Counted from the stretch's first letter, positions 8,746-27,787 are shown. The stretch: DNA of 33,444 nucleotides from Candidatus Gastranaerophilales bacterium (GCA_905236205.1 CAJOPF010000046.1:1-33444); one strand, 5' to 3'. The notes: a model not told the origin generated them from the sequence alone. A program made the numbers and translations.

Positions 8746-10651
8746 TTTTTATCCCCTCTGCTATTGCCTTTGCTGTTGCTTGTTTACGCTTTTCGCTAAT
8801 CATATCCTGACGTTCGTCTTCATTTGAAATAAAACCTATTTCAACTAAAATTGCAGGCATTGTTGTATGATTTATAACATAAAATTTGGACTTAAACAAA
8901 CCTCTGTCTTTTGAATTTACGTGTTTTGTAAGAGCCTCGTGAACAACTTTTGCCAAACCTATGCTGTAATCGTGGTAATAATGTGTTTCAAGACCTGTTG
9001 CCGTTGTACCCTCACTTGAGTTAACGTGAATACTTACAAATATATCAGGTTCGTTTTCTTCGGCAAAATCAACTCTTTCCTGCAACGATAAAGTTTTATC
9101 TTCATCTCTCGTCATGTAAACTTTAAATCCGTCGGAGCGAAGTATTTTTGCTACTCTTAAAGAAACATCCGTCGTTATATCTTTTTCGTTTATACCTGAA
9201 CGAATTGCTCCGTAATCAATACCTCCATGTCCCGGATCAATTACAACAACTTTTTCTCCTGATTTACGCTTTTTCAATATTTTTTCCGAACTCTTAGTCG
9301 GCAACTCTGAAATATTTTCAGGTATTCTTTGTGTTAAAGTTTCTTTTTTATTAGTTCTGAGTGTCAATTTAATTGTTCTTGAATCAGCTCCCGCATATAT
9401 GTTAACCAAATCCGTTTTTTCGATAGGTAATGAATACCTAAGCCCTATTCTCGGCATCAAATCAATTCTTGAAGAAGACATTTCCGTTCCGTTGACGGTT
9501 GTTTTGAAATCTTGGTCATTATATTGAACTGCATTAAAGAAGTATATCGTCAAATTATTGTTGTCACGTTTTACGGAATAAACAACAGGTTTGCTGAAAT
9601 AAAAATTCATTCCGCAATTTCTGTCATTAGTTTTGGTAACTTTTACGGAAGTTAAATTCGTATTGATATTTGTCAGTTTATCATGACTTAATTTTTCTTT
9701 ATCCGCAATTAAAACCGACTGGTTATCAATCGAATATATCGGTATGTATCTGTCATAATTATCGGTATTAACAACAACTCTTGCTTTATTAGCTTCAAAT
9801 TGACCGACTTTTACTGTGTCATTTCCATATTGAAACGAATTTGAACGTATTTTTGTATTGGTAAGAGTGTTTGGAAAATCAAAAACAAGCCTGCAAGGGG
9901 CGTTCATTTTAATAGGGTTTTCCATTGAAACAGAACCGATACCGTTTACTAATATTCCATTATTCTTAGCCTGTATACCTCTTAAATAATATTTTGTTTT
10001 TAGTATAAAATCCTTCTTTTTAAGTTGCACATCAGTATTTTGATATGAAGTTTTAATATTTACGGGAACTGTTGAATTATCAAAGGCTTGCTGTATTTGA
10101 ATTATAACCTTGTCTGACGCATTGATTTTCGGAACAAAAGGTTTTTCTTCCGTAGTAATATTTTGGGACATCATTGAAATATACGAATAATAATCAGTAT
10201 CTTCAAATTTTTCATCTCTGTATACCGTACGCATATAATTTGCATCATAACAAACCTGATTATTAAACTTAACAATAATGTTATTATTTAATCTGAGCAG
10301 CTTTAAATTTTCCGTATTATAGCCTTCATCAAAATAAATTACAACTCTCACCACATTTGGATTTGTAGAATTTTGAGAAACAACAATTTGTTTTAACTTG
10401 CCGCCAGAAGATATTTGGTAATTTTGTTTTTCCGTTGCAAGAATAGTATTGGGAATATCAAAATAAACTCTTTTCGGATTATCAAGGTTAACAAGTTTTA
10501 TATTATTGCTGAGTTTTGAATGTTCTGTTGACGCTATAAAAAGCATATTTGCAGATGTGTCATAATTAACGGAAGTGATTTTTTCATCCGCAAAAACACT
10601 CTGCATAGTTATAGAAAATATTAGCAATAAAAATATTATAAATTTTTTCAT
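8723..10651 (-). CDS. N-acetylmuramoyl-L-alanine amidase (amidase_3) with N-terminal AMIN-like domains and signal peptide
   Basis: VVVIDPGHGGIDYGAIRSGINEKDITTDVSLRVAKIL... SIHVNSSEGTTATGLETHYY... ILVEIGFISNEDE; signal peptide MKKFIIFLLLIFSITMQSVFA. Start moved to ATG 10651 after GGGGAAATGTTA. Confidence 0.92.
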   Translation of the reverse strand: MKKFIIFLLLIFSITMQSVFADEKITSVNYDTSANMLFIASTEHSKLSNNIKLVNLDNPKRVYFDIPNTILATEKQNYQISSGGKLKQIVVSQNSTNPNVVRVVIYFDEGYNTENLKLLRLNNNIIVKFNNQVCYDANYMRTVYRDEKFEDTDYYSYISMMSQNITTEEKPFVPKINASDKVIIQIQQAFDNSTVPVNIKTSYQNTDVQLKKKDFILKTKYYLRGIQAKNNGILVNGIGSVSMENPIKMNAPCRLVFDFPNTLTNTKIRSNSFQYGNDTVKVGQFEANKARVVVNTDNYDRYIPIYSIDNQSVLIADKEKLSHDKLTNINTNLTSVKVTKTNDRNCGMNFYFSKPVVYSVKRDNNNLTIYFFNAVQYNDQDFKTTVNGTEMSSSRIDLMPRIGLRYSLPIEKTDLVNIYAGADSRTIKLTLRTNKKETLTQRIPENISELPTKSSEKILKKRKSGEKVVVIDPGHGGIDYGAIRSGINEKDITTDVSLRVAKILRSDGFKVYMTRDEDKTLSLQERVDFAEENEPDIFVSIHVNSSEGTTATGLETHYYHDYSIGLAKVVHEALTKHVNSKDRGLFKSKFYVINHTTMPAILVEIGFISNEDERQDMISEKRKQATAKAIAEGIKNYYKQQK

Positions 10652-10753
10652 TAACATTTCCCCATTTTGATATTGTAGCACTTTTTTAAAATATTGAAAA
10701 AAAGTTGACCTTTCTTAAAAAAAATAATATCATCTTGTAAAAGGGAGTATTTT

Positions 10754-14538: not shown

Positions 14539-15435
14539 ATGAGTGAAGTTATAACTGAATTTCGCAACGAAAACACAAAAAATATCGATTTGTTGAGTAG
14601 TTTGGAAATTGTACAAAAAATAAATGAAGAGGATAAACTTGTAGCTCTTGCTGTTGAAAGCGAGTTGGAAAATATTGCAAAAGCAATAGATATGATTTCA
14701 AAACAGTTATTGAAGAGCGGCAGGTTGATTTATTTCGGGGCTGGAACCTCAGGACGCTTGGGAATTTTAGACGCTTCAGAATGTCCGCCTACATTTAGCG
14801 TACCTCATGATATGGTTCAGGGCATAATTGCAGGTGGAGACAGCGCGTTTAAAAGACCTATCGAAGGCGCAGAAGACAATTTTGAAAGCGGAAGATATGA
14901 CGCAAGAATATTAACAGAAGATGATGTTGCGGTAGTAATTTCAGCAAGCGGAAATCCAAAATATCTTCTTGGAGTATTAGAACAAGCTAATGAATCTAAC
15001 ACAAAAACAATCGCTTTAACATGTAATTCACAAGCAAAAATTGCAGAAGAAGCATCACTTACAATTTGTGTAGAAGTCGGTGCGGAAGTTATTGCAGGCT
15101 CAAGCAGAATGAAAGCGGGAACTGCACAAAAAATGGTTCTGAACATGCTTTCAACAGGTTCTATGATAAAAATTGGTAAAACATACCAAAATTTTATGAT
15201 TGATTTAAAACCGACAAATGAAAAATTAAAAGACAGAGCGATAAGAATTGTTGCACAAATTGCCCAAACAACTCACGCTAAAGCTTTTGAAACTTTAGAA
15301 AAATGCAATTGGGAAGTAAAAACGGCAGTTGCGGCAATAGTAAAATCTGTTGATATTGAAACAGCAAGACAACTTTTAAAACGACATAACGGAATTTTAA
15401 GAAAATTATTAACCGAAAAGGAAAAAATAAGATGA
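14539..15435 (+). CDS. murQ: N-acetylmuramic acid 6-phosphate etherase
   Basis: SIS-domain protein: YFGAGTSGRLGILDASECPPTFSVPHDMVQGIIAGGDSAFKRPIEGAEDN, AGSSRMKAGTAQKMVLNMLST. Confidence 0.96.
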   Translation: MSEVITEFRNENTKNIDLLSSLEIVQKINEEDKLVALAVESELENIAKAIDMISKQLLKSGRLIYFGAGTSGRLGILDASECPPTFSVPHDMVQGIIAGGDSAFKRPIEGAEDNFESGRYDARILTEDDVAVVISASGNPKYLLGVLEQANESNTKTIALTCNSQAKIAEEASLTICVEVGAEVIAGSSRMKAGTAQKMVLNMLSTGSMIKIGKTYQNFMIDLKPTNEKLKDRAIRIVAQIAQTTHAKAFETLEKCNWEVKTAVAAIVKSVDIETARQLLKRHNGILRKLLTEKEKIR

Positions 15436-16430
15436 AATTAACAATACTTGGAGCAGGATGCTGGGGAACAACACTTGCATGGTTACTGACAGATAATTTT
15501 GAGCAGGTTTGCTTATGGTCAAGAGAACAAGATTTACAAGAAGATTTAGTAAAAAACAAACATTGTTCAAAACCATTGGCAATCCAATTGCAAGACAAAG
15601 TTGAAGTAACTTCCGATATGAAATTGGCAATTAAAAATGCTGATATAATTTTATCTGTTGTTGCAACGGCGGGAACAAGAAGTGTTTGCGAACAATTAAA
15701 AGCCTCAGGAATAAAGCCTGAACAAATACTTGTAAACGCGTCAAAAGGTATTGAATTGCCGTCATTGATGACAATGTCTGATGTTATAAAAGATGTTTTA
15801 CCGGAACAAAAACTTGCAATACTTTCAGGACCTACACTTGCAAAAGAAGTTCTAATGGGCTGTCCTACGGCGGCTTGCGTTGCATCAGATGATGCGGAAG
15901 TTGCGGAATTTGTTCAAAAACATTTGAACGTTAAAAACAAATTCAGATTATATACTAATTCTGACGTAACAGGGGTTGAACTGGGCGGAAGTTTAAAGAA
16001 TGTAATTGCGATAGCAGCAGGTTTTGCAACTCAAATGAATTTGGGCGATAATGCTAACGGAGCATTATTAACAAGAGGTATGGCAGAAATTGTCAGAATC
16101 AGCGTAAGATTAGGCGCAAACCCTTCAACATTGTACGGTTTGTCAGGAATGGGCGATTTAATAGCAACTTGCTCAAGCCCGTTATCAAGAAACCACACAG
16201 TAGGAGCAATGCTTGCAAAAGGTAAAAAAATTGATGATATTTTAAAAGAATTAGGTTCTGTGGCAGAGGGTGTCCAAACGTCTAAGGCTCTTTGCGAACT
16301 TGCAAAGAAATTAAATGTTGAAGTTCCGCTTTCAGAAGCTATATATGAAGCTTTATATACGGATATTACACCGATTGAAGTTATGCAAAAATTGATGAAC
16401 AGAAAATTGAAAGAAGAAGAAAAGTACTAA
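15432..16430 (+). CDS. gpsA: Glycerol-3-phosphate dehydrogenase [NAD(P)+]
   Basis: ILGAGCWGTTLAWLL, ILSGPTLAKEV, GVELGGSLKNVIAIAAGF, GLSGMGDLIATCSSPLSRNH; ATGA overlap with murQ. Confidence 0.96.
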   Translation: MKLTILGAGCWGTTLAWLLTDNFEQVCLWSREQDLQEDLVKNKHCSKPLAIQLQDKVEVTSDMKLAIKNADIILSVVATAGTRSVCEQLKASGIKPEQILVNASKGIELPSLMTMSDVIKDVLPEQKLAILSGPTLAKEVLMGCPTAACVASDDAEVAEFVQKHLNVKNKFRLYTNSDVTGVELGGSLKNVIAIAAGFATQMNLGDNANGALLTRGMAEIVRISVRLGANPSTLYGLSGMGDLIATCSSPLSRNHTVGAMLAKGKKIDDILKELGSVAEGVQTSKALCELAKKLNVEVPLSEAIYEALYTDITPIEVMQKLMNRKLKEEEKY

Positions 16431-19400: not shown

Positions 19401-19607
19401 TCTTACTATCCTCTGTCCCTCTTGTGTGTCTTAATAATATAAAATTTTTTTGACAACTTCATCAAATAAAAAGAGGATATTAAAAATTTTTTCTACATAA
19501 AACAGATGATAAATTTTGTTTAATTAGTAAAAACAAGATATTAGTATTTTTATGATATAATAATAGCAATAGTAACCAGCAAATCAGTAATAAGTTGGAG
19601 GTGTCTT

Positions 19608-20558
19608 TTGCAAATTTTAATCACCGGTGGTGCCGGATTCATCGGTTCAAATCTTGCAGACAGACTTTTAGAGAAAGGTCATAAAATTATTGTTGTTGAT
19701 AATTTTAATGACTACTACTCCCCTTTAATAAAAGAAAATAATGTAAAAAACAATTTGGATAATCCGAATTATAAGCTTTATCGCGGCGATATATGCGATA
19801 AAAATTTAATTGAACAAATTTTCAATGAAAATAATATCAATTCGGTAGTTCATATTGCAGCAAGAGCTGGTGTAAGACCGTCTTTGGAAAACCCACTGGA
19901 ATATGTTAAAACAAATATTGAAGGAACGGTAAATATTTTAGAACAAATGAAAACAAATGATGTGAAAAAGATTGTGTTTGCATCATCATCATCTGTATAC
20001 GGAAATTGTGAAGCCGAAAAATTTTCCGAAGAATTGGAAGTAACAGAACCTATATCACCTTACGCGGCAACAAAATTAGCTTGTGAACAGATGCTTTATA
20101 CATATTCAAAGCTCTATAACATAAAAGTTGTGGCATTGAGATTATTCACTGTATATGGTCCAAGACAGCGTCCTGATTTAGCAATAAGAAAATTTATAGA
20201 ACTGATAGAAAAAGATGAAGAAATACCTGTGTACGGTGACGGTACAACAATGAGAGATTACACTTATGTTGATGATATTGTATCAGGATTTGTTTCGGCT
20301 CTTGAATATGACAAAACACCTTATGAAATAATCAATATAGGCGGAGGTTCGCCTGTTACTCTTACAGAGATGATTGAAACAATAGAAAAAGTTTTAGGCA
20401 AAAAAGCAAAAATTAAACGACTTGATAACCAGCCCGGTGATGTTGAAAAAACCGTAAGTGATATACAAAAAGCAAGAATTTTACTTGGATATATTCCAAA
20501 AACAACATTTGAAAGCGGTATTCGTAAATTTGTGAAGTGGTTGAACAATGATAAATGA
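19608..20558 (+). CDS. NAD-dependent nucleotide-sugar epimerase, UDP-glucuronate 4-epimerase-like
   Basis: ILITGGAGFIGSNLADRLL, YYSPLIKENNV, HIAARAGVRPSLENPLEYVKTNIEGTVNIL, YAATK (YxxxK). Starts with TTG after TTGGAGGTG SD. Confidence 0.88.
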   Translation: MQILITGGAGFIGSNLADRLLEKGHKIIVVDNFNDYYSPLIKENNVKNNLDNPNYKLYRGDICDKNLIEQIFNENNINSVVHIAARAGVRPSLENPLEYVKTNIEGTVNILEQMKTNDVKKIVFASSSSVYGNCEAEKFSEELEVTEPISPYAATKLACEQMLYTYSKLYNIKVVALRLFTVYGPRQRPDLAIRKFIELIEKDEEIPVYGDGTTMRDYTYVDDIVSGFVSALEYDKTPYEIINIGGGSPVTLTEMIETIEKVLGKKAKIKRLDNQPGDVEKTVSDIQKARILLGYIPKTTFESGIRKFVKWLNNDK

Positions 20559-21483
20559 TATAATTGAAAAACTTGAAACAGAGCAAGATTTAAGAAACTA
20601 TATGTATGAGCATCTTAATTTATCTATGGATGAATTAAGTCAAATCAAGAAAAAAATGTACAAAATACGTACAAGGAGAGATTTAGATTTAGATACTCCG
20701 CAAACATACAGAGAAAAATTACAATGGATGATGCTTCATTACAGAAATCCTAAAATGACCATTTTGGCAGATAAATTTAAAGTCAGAGAATATATCAAAA
20801 ATACTGTCGGAGAAAAGTATTTGGTAAATCTTACAGGTGTATATGACAAATTTGACGATATAGACTTTTCTAAACTGCCTGACAGATTTGTCTTGAAAGT
20901 TAATTGGGGTTCAGGTCAAAATCTTATTGTGCATAATAAAAATGAACTTAATATTGAAGATGCCCGAAATAAGTTCAATAAATGGATGATGCCGACGTCA
21001 AATCATTATTATTTTGGTTTGGAGTGGTGCTATAAAAACATTGAACCTAAAATTATATGCGAAGAATATCTTGATTCCGTTAGTAAATCTGCGCTTGATT
21101 ATAAATTTTTATGTTTTAACGGAAAACCTCTGTATTGTTGGGTAAGCGACAAATACAAAGATATTCAGGAACGTAGTTTTTATGATATGGACTGGAATAT
21201 GCAAAATATTGAACTTGTAGAACCTCATAAAATTAAGGCTCCCGCTCCGCTTAAAAAACCTGAAAAGTTTGAAGAAATGAAAGAACTTGCAAATATACTA
21301 TGTAAAGATTGGCCGCATATAAGAGTTGATTTTTACAAATTAGATAACGGCGACATAAAATTCGGAGAGCTGACATTTTTTACAAGCTGCGGATATAGCC
21401 GCTGGGCACCCGAAACAATTGATTATGATATGGGTAAATACATAGATATTGACACTTTAAGACAAGGTGAATTTTATGTTTAA
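20548..21483 (+). CDS. TupA-like ATP-grasp protein
   Basis: TPQTYREKLQWMMLHYRNPKMTILADKFKVREYI, FVLKVNWGSGQNLIV, ICEEYLD, DYKFLCFNGKPLYCWV, WPHIRVDFYKLDNGDIKFGELTFFTSCGY. Confidence 0.85.
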   Translation: MINDIIEKLETEQDLRNYMYEHLNLSMDELSQIKKKMYKIRTRRDLDLDTPQTYREKLQWMMLHYRNPKMTILADKFKVREYIKNTVGEKYLVNLTGVYDKFDDIDFSKLPDRFVLKVNWGSGQNLIVHNKNELNIEDARNKFNKWMMPTSNHYYFGLEWCYKNIEPKIICEEYLDSVSKSALDYKFLCFNGKPLYCWVSDKYKDIQERSFYDMDWNMQNIELVEPHKIKAPAPLKKPEKFEEMKELANILCKDWPHIRVDFYKLDNGDIKFGELTFFTSCGYSRWAPETIDYDMGKYIDIDTLRQGEFYV

Positions 21484-23368
21484 AGATTTCTTCAGAAATA
21501 AAAATAAAAATAATTCCGGTAAAATATACAAAACTTTTACCTTTTGCGGGATTAGATTTAAAGTTTTAATCGGTTTTACAAATTCTCAATACGTAAACAA
21601 ATATCTGAACAATATAAAACCTTATAAAGCGTCTTCTCACAAAATTTGGGATGTACTGCCGAATGAAAGAAAAGATATACTTAAGCTTGATTGGAATGAA
21701 GCCGTAATTCCACCTTCTCCGCGAGTAACAGAAAGAATACAAGAACTTCTTAATGAACCGAATTTTTTGAATTTGTACCCTCAAACTTATAATAAAAAAC
21801 TTTTAGAAAAAATTTCCGAATACGTAAATATTCCTGTCAAAAATATTCAATATTTTTCAAGCTCAGACTCTATTCACGAATATATTGCAAAACTTTATAT
21901 AAAAGAAAATGATAAAGTTTTAATCCAAGGACCGTCTTATGATAATTTCAGACTAACGGCAGAAGCTAACGGAGCTAAAATATATTATTGTGAAGTTGAA
22001 CCTGAAAATTTTAAATTTGATGAGAAAAAATTTGATAAGGCTGTTGCCGAAATTTCTCCGACATTCGTCTACATTTGCTCTCCGAATAACCCTTGCGGAT
22101 ATATTAACAAGACCGAATATTTGGAACATCTTATCAAAAAATACACAGGTACAATGTTTTTGATTGATGAGGCTTATGCTGAATTTTCGGGGATATCTGC
22201 GAAAGAACTGAGCCTTAAGTATGAAAATATTTTAGTTACAAGAACACTTTCCAAAGCATTTGCTATGGCAAATTTACGTTTTGGATACCTTATAGCATCA
22301 GAAAACAATATAAACAGCATAAACAGTATTCGAAACCCGAAAAACATAAATACTTTTACACAAGAAACAGCTATTGCAACGCTTTCCGATATTGAATATA
22401 TGCAAAATTATGTTAAAGAAGTTAAAGAAGCAAGAAAACTTTTTATTGATGAAATGAAAAAATATTCGGACATAAAAGTTTTTGACAGTTATTCAAATTT
22501 TGTATTGATGAAATTTAAAAATTGCGGTTTAAAATACAGATTTTTTGAATATTTAAAAGAAAAAAATATATTTGTAAGAGATTTAACACAAAGTAAAATT
22601 CTCTATACTTGTCTAAGAATTACGATAGGTAATATTGAAAGCGTAAAAAAAGTTCTTGATGTTATTGAAGAATTTTTCAAAACTGAAAATACTCCTGCTC
22701 AAAAGTATCAAGATAAAGTTGCACTTTTTGATTTTTGCGAAACTTTAGTTAATTTTCAATCAGGAAACGCTTTTGTAGATTACGTAAGACGCGAAAAAAA
22801 CTCTTTTAAATTTAACCTGAGATATAAAATTCACAAAAAATTCTGTAAAATTAAAAGTAGAATTATAAAAAATTTTATCGGTAAAGAAGACTATTTAGGT
22901 ATAATTAAAAATCTTTCAAAACAGGAATTAGAGAATTTAGCACTAAACTACTATGTGGAAAAAATTCGTCCTAATTTTAATTTATCGGTAATTCAGGAAT
23001 TAAAAAGATTAAAAAATGAAGGATATCGAATTTATGTGGTATCAGGCGGATATGACACATACTTAAAGTATTTTGCAGAAGAATTTAATATTGACGGTAT
23101 TTTTTCCACAAAATTAAAATATGATAAAAATGATATTTTTACGGGAAAATTTGATGGCATTGACTGTATGTGCTCAAATAAAATATTACTGTTAAAAAAT
23201 TTCTTTAAAAATGAACCTTTTAACGAATATGAAACAGTTGCATACAGTGATAATATCAGCGATTTACCGCTTTTAAAACTTTGTAAAAAAGGTTATTTAG
23301 TGATGAATAAGGAAAAAGCTATTCCAAACTGGGCTAAAGAAGAAAAACTTGAAGTATTTTATATATGA
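21476..23368 (+). CDS. Fusion: HisC-like PLP aminotransferase + HAD-superfamily (SerB-like) phosphatase
   Basis: Aminotransferase motifs LDWNEAVIPPSP, CSPNNPCGYINK, FLIDEAYAEFSG, TRTLSKAFAMANLRFGY; HAD motifs ALFDFCETLV, YVVSGGYDTYL, CSNKILLLKNFF, VAYSDNISDLPLLKLC. ATG 21476 with AAGGTGA SD preferred over GTG 21467. Confidence 0.88.
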   Translation: MFKDFFRNKNKNNSGKIYKTFTFCGIRFKVLIGFTNSQYVNKYLNNIKPYKASSHKIWDVLPNERKDILKLDWNEAVIPPSPRVTERIQELLNEPNFLNLYPQTYNKKLLEKISEYVNIPVKNIQYFSSSDSIHEYIAKLYIKENDKVLIQGPSYDNFRLTAEANGAKIYYCEVEPENFKFDEKKFDKAVAEISPTFVYICSPNNPCGYINKTEYLEHLIKKYTGTMFLIDEAYAEFSGISAKELSLKYENILVTRTLSKAFAMANLRFGYLIASENNINSINSIRNPKNINTFTQETAIATLSDIEYMQNYVKEVKEARKLFIDEMKKYSDIKVFDSYSNFVLMKFKNCGLKYRFFEYLKEKNIFVRDLTQSKILYTCLRITIGNIESVKKVLDVIEEFFKTENTPAQKYQDKVALFDFCETLVNFQSGNAFVDYVRREKNSFKFNLRYKIHKKFCKIKSRIIKNFIGKEDYLGIIKNLSKQELENLALNYYVEKIRPNFNLSVIQELKRLKNEGYRIYVVSGGYDTYLKYFAEEFNIDGIFSTKLKYDKNDIFTGKFDGIDCMCSNKILLLKNFFKNEPFNEYETVAYSDNISDLPLLKLCKKGYLVMNKEKAIPNWAKEEKLEVFYI

Positions 23369-24204
23369 GGTTAATACGGGCTTTGAACAAAAATAAAATA
23401 AAAATACTTGTTGTATATCATAAAAAAGATAATCTGTTCAAGAGCTGTATGTTTGTACCGATACATGCAGGGCGAGCAATTGCGAAAGAAAAATCAAAAG
23501 ACGGTATAATCTCGGAAGATGAGTATAATTGGCTTGTAAAAAATACTATTGGCGACGATACAGGAGATAATATATCTTCTAAAAATCGAGAATTAAACGA
23601 ACTTACGGCAATTTATTGGGCTTGGAAAAATTATGATAAACTTGGCAACCCTGATTATATCGGTTTGAACCATTATCGCAGATTTTTTAAAGCAGATTAT
23701 AATAATTTAAAGAATTTATTAAAAGAATATTATTTTATAAAAATGGATTTCTTTTTAAATAAAAAAGAATCCCTTTACGAGTCTTGGAAAAACTGCAATA
23801 AAGACTGGACAGACAATGAATATTTAGACAATGCTTTAAAAAGCTGTAATGAGTTACAGGGTAATAATGAAATAGAAAAATACTTCAAAAATAATACCGA
23901 ATCTGACGGTTTATGCAATATGTTTATTTTACCAAAGGAAGAATTTTTCAAATATTGTGAGTTTTTGTTCGGTCTTGTTTTCCGACTCCCAGAAAAACAA
24001 GGGCTTAGAACAACAGGAATGTTTGCCGAAAGATTAAGCTCCTATTATTTTGTAACCCTTTCGAAAACAAAAAAATGCCTGACATTACCAATTTGTAAAG
24101 AGCCTGTCAGCCACTCATATAAAGAAAAATTGCGCAACAAAATTTCAGAAACAAAAAATAAATTTTCAAAATTAAAATTTTTGTTAAAGTGGTATAATAG
24201 CTAA
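23365..24204 (+). CDS. DUF4422-type glycosyltransferase
   Basis: NRELNELTAIYWAWKNYDKLGNPDYIGLNHYRRFF, GLCNMFILPKEEFFKYCEFLFGL, GMFAERLSSYYF; ATGA overlap with upstream gene. Confidence 0.83.
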   Translation: MRLIRALNKNKIKILVVYHKKDNLFKSCMFVPIHAGRAIAKEKSKDGIISEDEYNWLVKNTIGDDTGDNISSKNRELNELTAIYWAWKNYDKLGNPDYIGLNHYRRFFKADYNNLKNLLKEYYFIKMDFFLNKKESLYESWKNCNKDWTDNEYLDNALKSCNELQGNNEIEKYFKNNTESDGLCNMFILPKEEFFKYCEFLFGLVFRLPEKQGLRTTGMFAERLSSYYFVTLSKTKKCLTLPICKEPVSHSYKEKLRNKISETKNKFSKLKFLLKWYNS

Positions 24205-24221
24205 AAAGGTACAATTTAACT

Positions 24222-25976
24222 ATGCTGAGCAGATATTTTAAAACAAAAATAAAATCTAAAAATTTTGACGATAATTTACGCAATTTAATTAAAGAAAACA
24301 AAGATAAAAAAGTCCTTATTTACGGCGCAGGTCAGGGTTTTAAAGAATTAGACAAAAAGTATCTTTTCAGCAAAAACCTAAATATAAAAGCTGTTGCAGA
24401 TAAAAAATTTGAAAATAAACATAATAAATTTTTTAACGGTATACGAGCAATTGCTCCTGAACAAATAACAAAGGAAGATTATGATGTAATATTGATTTCA
24501 AACGAAAATGCTAAACCCATTTTAAAATATTTAATTGATGATTTAAAAATTAACAACAAAAATATACAAGCAATATTTAAAGAAGAAATTAAAGATGAAC
24601 GCACTAATTTTAATTATCTGCAAAAAATCAATTTCAAAAAACAATTAGCACAATTAACAAAAGAAACGTACGGAAAAAAAATAATTTTATACGGAGCAGG
24701 AGCATTTTTGCAGCTTGCTCACAAAGTATATGATTTTTCCAAACTGAATATAATCGGTATTTCAGATAAAAAATTCAGTAATCATAGCGAAAACGAAACA
24801 TTTTTAGGATACAAAGTTTATTCTCCTGATGAAATAAAAAATATAAATCCGGATATTATAATTGTTACTGCAAAAAACTACAACCATACAATAAAATTAG
24901 TTTATAATGACGTTATTAAAAATTCAAATGCCGAATATATGCCACTTGTAAAAAGTAAATCCGCATCGTTAATCGTTCAATATTTTACGATTATGTTTTC
25001 CGGATTATTTAACAGAAAATATTATTTGACACAATACGGAAGCAAATTAAATTTTCTGCAAAAACTTTTTCCAATGTGGCACTACACAAAAAACGGGTGG
25101 AAACATAACTTCAACCCATCAAACAAATTTGATGCCGTATATTTCCAAAGTACACGCCCTTGGATTTTAGAAAATCCGCTATATCATTATTTAAAATATA
25201 TCGTTAAATATTCCAACTTCCTTAATCCAACAAATTATTACTTACCGAAAGAAGAAAACATAAATAAATACCTTAAAGCAAAAGCAAAAAGAGGTAAAAC
25301 AAAAAAAGTAATCTACACCTGCCTTACAGGTGATTATGATAACTTAGAGTCAATAAAATCACATCATTATATTGATAATTCATGGGATTATGTCTGCTTT
25401 ACGGATAATCAGGAATATATAAAAAAAGGACAATACGGTATTTGGGAAATACGACCGCTTGAGTATACAAAATCCGATAATGTGAGAAATAACCGCTGGC
25501 ACAAAATGCATCCTCACATATTGTTTCCGAATTATGATGAAAGTATATATTTAGATACCAACATAAATATTTTATCAAACAGGATCTTCAAACAAATAAA
25601 AAAATGGAAAAAAGACTTGCTTTTACCAAAAAGATTGGGACACCAATGTATTTATCAGGAATACAAATGGATATACAAAGATAAAGTAGATAATCGTTCA
25701 ATTGTAAGAAAAGAATGGAAACTCATAAAACAAGCGGGTATGCCGAGAAATTACGGAGCTTGCGAATGTAATTTAATATACAGAAAACACAAAAATCCAA
25801 AAATAATAAAAATAATGGAAGAATGGTGGTATTTTGTTGAAAATTATTCAAAACGCGACCAGTTAGCTTTTCCTTACGTAATGTGGAAAAACAAATTACA
25901 AATAAAAGATTACTCAATTGAAAATTTAAAACCATATTACAAGGATTATTGCTTATTTAAACATAATAAACAATAA
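24222..25976 (+). CDS. Multidomain protein: two tandem Rossmann-like (IYGAG) domains + DUF616/TOD1-MUCI70-like glycosyltransferase domain
   Basis: KKVLIYGAGQGFKELDKKYLF and KKIILYGAGAFLQLAHKVYDF repeats; C-terminal VIYTCLTGDYDNLES...YVCFTDNQEYI...NRWHKMHPHILFPNYDESIYLDTNI...YSKRDQLAFPYVMW. Confidence 0.78.
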   Translation: MLSRYFKTKIKSKNFDDNLRNLIKENKDKKVLIYGAGQGFKELDKKYLFSKNLNIKAVADKKFENKHNKFFNGIRAIAPEQITKEDYDVILISNENAKPILKYLIDDLKINNKNIQAIFKEEIKDERTNFNYLQKINFKKQLAQLTKETYGKKIILYGAGAFLQLAHKVYDFSKLNIIGISDKKFSNHSENETFLGYKVYSPDEIKNINPDIIIVTAKNYNHTIKLVYNDVIKNSNAEYMPLVKSKSASLIVQYFTIMFSGLFNRKYYLTQYGSKLNFLQKLFPMWHYTKNGWKHNFNPSNKFDAVYFQSTRPWILENPLYHYLKYIVKYSNFLNPTNYYLPKEENINKYLKAKAKRGKTKKVIYTCLTGDYDNLESIKSHHYIDNSWDYVCFTDNQEYIKKGQYGIWEIRPLEYTKSDNVRNNRWHKMHPHILFPNYDESIYLDTNINILSNRIFKQIKKWKKDLLLPKRLGHQCIYQEYKWIYKDKVDNRSIVRKEWKLIKQAGMPRNYGACECNLIYRKHKNPKIIKIMEEWWYFVENYSKRDQLAFPYVMWKNKLQIKDYSIENLKPYYKDYCLFKHNKQ

Positions 25977-26029: not shown

Positions 26030-27787
26030 ATGGCAAGAATTAAACAACTGTCTAAAAATTTAATAAATCAAATTGCAGCGGGAGAAGTTATTGAAAGACC
26101 TGTGTCCGTAGTAAAAGAACTTGTAGAAAACGCTATTGATGCAGGTTCAACAAAGATTAGTATTGAAATTAACAATAATTGCAGGGATATAAGAGTTGCG
26201 GATAACGGTTCGGGCATACATCCAGACGATATTATTCTGGCTTTTTCAAAACACGCAACAAGCAAAATACAGACAGTTGAAGATTTATATTCGATAGAAA
26301 CTCTCGGATTTAGGGGAGAAGCTCTTTCAAGTATAATTTCTATTGCAAAAGTTACCTGCACAACAAGAACAAAAGATTACGATTACGGATTTAAAGTTGA
26401 ATGTGCGAATTCGGAAGTTCAAAAAACTCAATTCGGATGCGCAGTCGGAACAATAATGACCGTAAAAGATTTATTTTATAATATTCCTGCAAGATTAAAG
26501 TTTTTGAAAAGTGAAAAAACAGAATTTTCGTATATTCAGGAACTTGTTCAATCAATTGCTTTGGTTAATTCAAATATAGCTTTTGAATTAAAAAACAATG
26601 ACAAAACAGTACTAAAAACAAACGGTTTGGGCAATTTAATCAATACAATAAAAGACCTTTATTCAAAAGATACCGCAAGTCATTTGAAAGAAGTTTTTAA
26701 AACTGATGAATTATCGGGATTAAAAATTTCAGGCTATATTTCAACACCCGATTACACACGTTCGAGTAAAAAATATAATATCTTCATAAATTCAAGAACG
26801 GTAAAATGTCAGGTATTTCAAAAAGCCATAGATACAGCCTATAAAAATATGATTGCAAAAGGAAAATATCCGTTTGTAGTTTTAAATCTTGAACTTTCAC
26901 CGACAGATATTGATGTAAACGTTCATCCTTCAAAAAAAGAAGTTCGATATAAAAACACAAACCAAATTTTTAGTTTTATATATTCCGCAATTGATATGGC
27001 TCTTTCAAATTACGTAGAAAGACCTGTAACAAATACTCTCAGCGTTGTAGAATTTAAGCCTGAGCAAACGGCAGAACAAAAATCTTTTGAAGATATATAC
27101 GTAAGTGATTTAAAACCTGTAAAACCAATTCAGGATGTATTTATAAAACCACGACAAGAAGTTACTCAAAATACCTTTTTTACAAAACAAGAAACAATTG
27201 TTCAAAACTCAATAACTCCGCAGGAAGAAGTCGAAACGGACAAAATTATAGGTCAATATAAAAAAACTTATATACTAATTGAAAAAGATGAAGGTTTGGA
27301 AATTGTTGACCAGCATATTGCAGAAGAAAGATATATTTATGAAAAATTAAAATCGCAAAATGAAATTGCATCACAAATATTGTTTTTGTCTGACGTAATA
27401 GAAGTTTCTCCGACAGAAGCTCAATTGATAAGAGAAAACAAGGATAAATTTGAGCATTTTGGTTTTCAAATTGAGGTTTTGAACGATAAAGAAGTAACCT
27501 TTAAAAAAGTTCCGCAATTACTGTCAAAAACAAACACAAAAGAAATCTTATCGGATATTTTGGAAAATCTTGACGGAGATATAGCAGGACTTGAAGAACA
27601 TATTTTAATTACAACTTCATGCAAAGCCGCAGTAAAGGCATGTCAGGAATTGTCTTTGTTTCAAATGCAGGAACTAATAAAAAAATGGCGAAAATGTGAA
27701 AAACCTTATACATGCCCGCATGGCAGACCTATTTCAAAAATAATTCCACACAAAGAACTTGCAGGATTTTTTCAAAGAAATAAATAA
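26030..27787 (+). CDS. mutL: DNA mismatch repair protein MutL
   Basis: IKQLSKNLINQIAAGEVIERPVSVVKELVENAIDAGSTKI, TLGFRGEALSSI; C-terminal DQHIAEERYIYE and CPHGRPI. Confidence 0.96.
   Translation: MARIKQLSKNLINQIAAGEVIERPVSVVKELVENAIDAGSTKISIEINNNCRDIRVADNGSGIHPDDIILAFSKHATSKIQTVEDLYSIETLGFRGEALSSIISIAKVTCTTRTKDYDYGFKVECANSEVQKTQFGCAVGTIMTVKDLFYNIPARLKFLKSEKTEFSYIQELVQSIALVNSNIAFELKNNDKTVLKTNGLGNLINTIKDLYSKDTASHLKEVFKTDELSGLKISGYISTPDYTRSSKKYNIFINSRTVKCQVFQKAIDTAYKNMIAKGKYPFVVLNLELSPTDIDVNVHPSKKEVRYKNTNQIFSFIYSAIDMALSNYVERPVTNTLSVVEFKPEQTAEQKSFEDIYVSDLKPVKPIQDVFIKPRQEVTQNTFFTKQETIVQNSITPQEEVETDKIIGQYKKTYILIEKDEGLEIVDQHIAEERYIYEKLKSQNEIASQILFLSDVIEVSPTEAQLIRENKDKFEHFGFQIEVLNDKEVTFKKVPQLLSKTNTKEILSDILENLDGDIAGLEEHILITTSCKAAVKACQELSLFQMQELIKKWRKCEKPYTCPHGRPISKIIPHKELAGFFQRNK

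Follow-up and report, generated by a model that had tools for sequence, protein, structure and literature searches.

Positions 19608-25976 of the window, by which we mean the whole analysed stretch of 33,444 nucleotides, hold five open reading frames that all run in the same direction on the plus strand, at the coordinates of the original prediction. The first gene (19608..20558), whose TTG start is preceded by a GGAGG ribosome-binding site identified by reading the sequence (19597..19601), encodes an NAD-dependent sugar epimerase of the UDP-glucuronate 4-epimerase-like type (Pfam PF16363/PF01370). It is followed by a TupA-like ATP-grasp protein (20548..21483; PF14305), a predicted carboxylate-amine (amide) ligase, and by a 633-residue fusion of a HisC-like PLP aminotransferase with a HAD-IB domain (21467..23368). 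The fourth gene (23365..24204) encodes a DUF4422 protein, predicted to be a glycosyltransferase (PF14393, 6.1e-37), and the fifth (24222..25976) a protein with a TOD1/MUCI70 (DUF616-like) glycosyltransferase-like domain, the PF04765 match (1.9e-6) covering its C-terminal part only; PF04765 (TOD1_MUCI70) is presumably the former DUF616. The first three gene junctions are overlaps of 11, 17 and 4 bases, and the fourth is a gap of 17 bases, which suggests a single transcript. In this sense, the original prediction of five overlapping or tightly spaced genes was borne out, and the families it named (epimerase, TupA, aminotransferase-HAD fusion, DUF4422 and DUF616-like) were all recovered as Pfam matches.

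The window corresponds to contig C46 of a draft assembly that comprises 163 contigs, totals 1.86 Mb and is 88.6% complete, and the loci closest to it among those collected belong to Candidatus Gastranaerophilales. Upstream of the cassette lies a DNA methylase gene on the opposite strand (Pfam), and the open reading frame after it (26030-27787) appears by reading to be MutL-like. What is more, an NAD-dependent glycerol-3-phosphate dehydrogenase, which interconverts dihydroxyacetone phosphate and glycerol-3-phosphate, is encoded in a separate gene group 3 kb upstream (15432-16430). Shuffled sequences contain promoter-like sites at least as often as the DNA around the cassette does, and neither a polymerase nor an exporter was found within the cassette. 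A phage or plasmid origin was considered and set aside, the searches returning generic HisC or HAD matches only.

The epimerase and the TupA-like ligase

The cassette epimerase matches PF16363 at 1.3e-69 and appears to resemble UDP-glucuronate 4-epimerases. Its best PDB match is 5u4q, followed by 6zl6 (together with 6zla); the 6zl6 record is titled simply as an epimerase-domain protein, and we take it to be the UDP-GlcA 4-epimerase of B. cereus. In the PDB comparison, the window protein shares the LRLFTVYGPRQRPD motif, including its Arg, and among the NCBIfam matches listed none passes its cut-off. A UDP-glucose dehydrogenase family gene with all three Pfam domains is present in the same genome, on contig C22 and thus on a contig other than that of the cassette.

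The second protein matches PF14305 (ATPgrasp_TupA) at 1.3e-45 over nearly the full length of the model, and its gene is single-copy in the assembly. A PDB search returned no solved relative by sequence. Its predicted structure has a pLDDT of 94, and the top Foldseek matches to this model are ATP-grasp carboxylate-amine ligases, the L-amino acid ligase RizA coming first and Ddl, ArgX, LysX, RimK and PurK all appearing among the first 50. Residues K117, D184, K186, R259, D261 and E274 are conserved in the TupA alignment. On the strength of the Pfam match and this model, the window protein is predicted to have an ATP-grasp fold and to act as an amide ligase.

The aminotransferase-HAD fusion

The N-terminal part of the fusion matches Aminotran_1_2 (3.3e-51) and its C-terminal part the HAD family PF12710 (2.3e-19). 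Profiles, PDB comparison and reading of the sequence place the aminotransferase domain at 21578..22708, with K263 as the PLP lysine, and the HAD domain follows at 22709..23365. The latter exceeds the cut-off of the HAD-IB model TIGR01490 (115.8 against 98.3 bits), and its nearest solved relatives in the PDB search are phosphoserine phosphatases.

Could the fusion instead serve histidine synthesis, as a histidinol-phosphate aminotransferase/phosphatase whose location in a glycan cassette is accidental? The aminotransferase domain is indeed closest to HisC, both by sequence and by fold, and the HAD domain gives weak matches to histidinol-phosphatase models. However, the domain scores 259.4 bits against the HisC model TIGR01141, below the cut-off of 276.55; histidinol dehydrogenase (HisD) was not found in the 88.6% complete assembly, whereas 13 of 14 control genomes have it; and the fusion occurs in just 6 of the 382 genomes of the class, where it accompanies TupA. 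Histidine synthesis by the fusion is therefore unlikely, and its chance presence in this cassette for that purpose is an explanation to which we give very little credence. In other words, the window domain is like HisC in fold and closest sequence family, but differs from it in falling under the HisC cut-off, in being fused to a HAD domain and linked to TupA, and in belonging to a genome in which HisD was not found. A short KIYKTFTFLGIKFK-like motif was also noticed at the start of the fusion (window 21467-21577); it recurs in proteins of L011, L014 and L016, where it opens some of the TupA proteins and is internal to the GT2-TupA protein.

A conserved trio across bacteria

The search for relatives of the HAD domain covered a sample of 382 genomes of the class as well as GTDB contigs, several contigs being common to both, and most of the loci come from metagenome-assembled genomes. 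Scanning the GTDB contigs with a single HAD sequence returned no relatives, whereas a six-sequence alignment returned 23 loci, from Gastranaerophilales, Bacteroidia, Clostridia, Synergistaceae and Ignavibacteria. In 18 of these 23, the aminotransferase, HAD and TupA genes are contiguous, mostly overlapping or at most 20 bases apart, and they occur in four orders (TupA-AT-HAD, AT-HAD-TupA, TupA-HAD-AT and HAD-TupA-AT, with AT standing for the aminotransferase). The aminotransferase, the TupA ligase and the HAD protein are a conserved module in four phyla. Fusion of the aminotransferase with the HAD is limited to Gastranaerophilales loci, namely, besides the window, L015-L018, L020 and L021.

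In the class sample, the HAD is borne by 6 of the 382 genomes and TupA is adjacent in all six, broken in one, while TupA as such is present in 70 of the 382. Moreover, among 30 loci chosen by TupA score, the aminotransferase-HAD pair was found just once, at what is itself a module locus. Since TupA alone is so much commoner and the pair so rare beside it, the association of the trio does not merely reflect how common these genes are in glycan loci. The distances of the three proteins correlate with Mantel r values of 0.31 to 0.51, that for TupA and the aminotransferase being a moderate 0.31, and shared ancestry of the genomes alone could give the same values.

The arrangement varies at individual loci. 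In L014, which is on the same contig as L021, TupA forms the C-terminal half of a GT2 protein, and in L031 a separate HAD gene adjoins TupA without an adjacent aminotransferase of the module type. L013/L018, L014/L021 and L029 likewise have a UDP-glucose dehydrogenase gene in the vicinity of the module, a DUF4422 gene adjoins it in L010/L015, and TOD1-like relatives are found near it in L015, L025, L028 and L034.

Several further arrangements were observed. In L031 (6201-11815), the genes on either side of TupA and HAD encode an octopine-dehydrogenase-like protein and a fusion of a nucleotidyltransferase with an aminotransferase, which may represent a further amine route. L024 (1931-10565) has three TupA and two aminotransferase-like genes within 9 kb, only one TupA being beside the HAD, and in L087 TupA adjoins a UDP-glucose dehydrogenase, with a window-like epimerase close by and neither aminotransferase nor HAD. 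Finally, the TupA and aminotransferase frames of L019 (6651-9657) are interrupted, in the case of the aminotransferase immediately ahead of an A8 run. The copy in L020 (5415-8422), which is 89% identical, has an open frame at the L019 break site; the broken copy may represent decay, phase variation or an assembly error.

At two loci (L033:572-1861 and L037:6522-7814), a 430-residue protein with matches to the PaaK family of adenylate-forming enzymes stands beside an aminotransferase and a HAD with the DxCxT motif discussed below, and the end of a similar PaaK-like protein was recognized by eye at a third (L060:3-311). The aminotransferases of L033, L037, L059 and L060 are of a more distant type (58-78 bits). 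An unrelated carboxylate-activating enzyme in the place of TupA would argue for amide formation as the function of that position. In L036, the third gene of the module locus (9617-10738) has no Pfam match, and an ATP-grasp profile probability of 8% together with a synapsin match at E 0.09 is only suggestive of another ATP-grasp protein.

A cysteine in HAD motif I

HAD phosphatases carry the motif DxDxT, in which the second Asp is the acid/base (PMC8069645). In the window, motif I (22730..22744) instead reads DFCET (D422-F-C424-E-T426), with Cys424 at the site of that Asp, a feature absent from the original prediction, while the remaining catalytic residues (D422, T426, S526, K572, D595 and D599) are kept. 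The domain thus shares its fold and motifs II to IV with HAD-IB phosphatases of the phosphoserine phosphatase type, but differs from them in having DxCxT where they have DxDxT. In the alignment of 22 module HADs, D8, C10, T12, S112, K158, D181 and D185 are invariant, and DxCxT is found in all module HADs that could be clearly aligned and in none of about 45 non-module homologues. One of the HAD search patterns included the Cys, and selection bias was therefore considered; that said, L016, L026, L029, L031, L035 and L036 lie outside this pattern and still carry the Cys. In a profile search of 395 Bacteroidia genomes, the three best HADs have Cys and each adjoins an aminotransferase, whereas 17 weaker ones have Asp and are without either partner. 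Among 391 Clostridia genomes, the sole module HAD is that of Butyrivibrio; the other HADs have Asp and none adjoins TupA, the motif of L129 being unreadable. Separately, in L108, L109, L110, L115, L116 and L118, clostridial HADs with DxDxT are paired differently: their neighbour is a distant aminotransferase of HisC/CobD-like type (44-72 bits), and there is no TupA.

Lacking DxDxT, the window HAD may be no ordinary hydrolase. Namely, the Cys could give rise to a long-lived phospho-aspartate whose phosphate is transferred or stays bound, so that the glycan would keep a phosphorylated amide, or the domain could be regulatory. The invariance of the Cys within the module, its absence from non-module relatives and the role of the second Asp in the HAD mechanism all speak for such a possibility. 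However, every other catalytic motif is retained, and the functional counterpart in C. jejuni is a proven phosphatase (PMC11800397). We consequently regard a non-phosphatase role as quite improbable, and continue to treat the domain as a putative phosphatase. Either way, the DxCxT HAD raises a question of enzymology, namely how catalysis proceeds once the acid/base Asp is replaced by Cys.

Discussion

We propose, with a probability of roughly 60%, that the cassette assembles part of a surface polysaccharide and decorates it with a uronamide derived from a phosphorylated amine, the substrates, the order of steps and the glycan being inferred. In particular, the UDP-glucose dehydrogenase encoded elsewhere in the genome would supply UDP-GlcA, which the cassette epimerase may convert to UDP-GalA, and the DUF4422 and TOD1-like proteins would add sugars. 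The phosphorylated amine produced by the HisC-like domain would most probably be (S)-serinol phosphate, formed from glutamate and dihydroxyacetone phosphate; the TupA-like ATP-grasp would couple this amine to the carboxylate of the uronic acid, and the fused HAD domain would remove the phosphate, with Cys424 standing where the acid/base Asp normally is.

The closest precedent comes from the HS:2 capsule of Campylobacter jejuni, in which Cj1437 transaminates dihydroxyacetone phosphate to (S)-serinol phosphate, Cj1436 decarboxylates L-Ser-P to ethanolamine phosphate, and the C-terminal domain of Cj1438 amidates glucuronate within the growing chain (PMC11800397). This domain, Cj1438C, is a TupA-like ATP-grasp that amidates GlcA (PMC11800397, PMC11800379, PMC13276843), and our literature search on TupA-like enzymes found this function described for C. 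jejuni only. Cj1437, Cj1438C and Cj1435 of HS:2, as well as HS19.10, HS19.11C and HS19.09 of HS:19, have the three functions predicted for the window trio (PLP enzyme, TupA-like ATP-grasp ligase and HAD phosphatase), and in both organisms the trio comes with known or predicted glycosyltransferases and UDP-GlcA supply. There are also differences. Namely, the window TupA stands alone, whereas the GT2-TupA layout of Cj1438 is present in the relative L014/L021; the aminotransferase and HAD of the window form a single protein; and the window trio is accompanied by a 4-epimerase-like enzyme, a DUF4422 protein and a TOD1-like protein. The GTDB contig scans with HAD queries gave no Campylobacter match, and none of the PDB matches was recognized as one of the proteins Cj1435 to Cj1438. 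A serinol amide also occurs in an O-antigen of E. coli/Shigella, for which our literature search found no usable description.

With the trio conserved in four phyla, UDP-glucose dehydrogenase present and the epimerase resembling UDP-glucuronate 4-epimerases, the original prediction of amine synthesis joined to uronic-acid amidation appears largely right in its logic. On the other hand, it had taken the ligase to be different from that of Campylobacter, which does not hold: since Cj1438C is likewise a TupA-like ATP-grasp, the ligase is the strongest point of agreement with C. jejuni. Nor is free serinol or an amino acid the default prediction, since the Campylobacter ligase attaches the amine in phosphorylated form to a sugar that the chain already contains, with dephosphorylation by the HAD as the final step.

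This order of steps deserves scrutiny. If the HAD acted before ligation, the product of the fusion would be a free amine, either an amino-alcohol or an amino acid, for TupA to couple to the carboxylate in a teichuronopeptide-like or amino-acid decoration. It could be argued in favour of such a scheme that the HAD is fused to the aminotransferase and not to the ligase, that its closest solved relatives are phosphoserine phosphatases, and that TupA may accept other amines, since most TupA genes of the class are without HAD or aminotransferase. However, the C. jejuni ligase uses the amine phosphate, Cj1435 (HAD) dephosphorylating last, after the amine phosphate has been joined (PMC11800397; for HS:19, PMC13276843), and outside the fusion the HAD is a separate gene found in several orders, once (L031) beside TupA without an adjacent module-type aminotransferase. 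We therefore consider early dephosphorylation possible but unlikely. The alkaliphilic Bacillus TupA of teichuronopeptide synthesis shares PF14305 with the window protein, but the window lacks the polyglutamate context, its TupA has an aminotransferase and a HAD as partners, and the predicted amine is a phospho-amino-alcohol.

As for the amine itself, sequence alone does not reveal which substrate a HisC-like or CobD-like enzyme uses, and serinol is favoured here by the HisC-like score and the C. jejuni precedent only. With the rest of the pathway the same, the amine could instead be ethanolamine phosphate, made by decarboxylation of L-Ser-P as by Cj1436. The aminotransferase domain does match the CobD threonine-phosphate decarboxylase model at 139.9 bits, and the C. 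jejuni ligase takes both of these amines (PMC11800397), but the HisC match is much stronger (259.4 bits), and we hold ethanolamine to be improbable.

Beyond the cassette, we see about an even chance that a general modular route to phospho-amine-derived uronic-acid amides, made up of an aminotransferase, a HAD of a distinct DxCxT subfamily and an interchangeable ligase (TupA or, in some lineages, adenylate-forming), operates in several mostly uncultured lineages, with C. jejuni as one instance. The combination of a DxCxT HAD with a neighbouring HisC-like enzyme and a ligase, TupA or another, provides a genome-search signature for such glycans. Amide-decorated uronic acids alter the charge and recognition of surface glycans, and this amidation chemistry is known enzymatically from Campylobacter. 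The module predicts that gut and rumen bacteria from several phyla decorate their glycans in a similar way.
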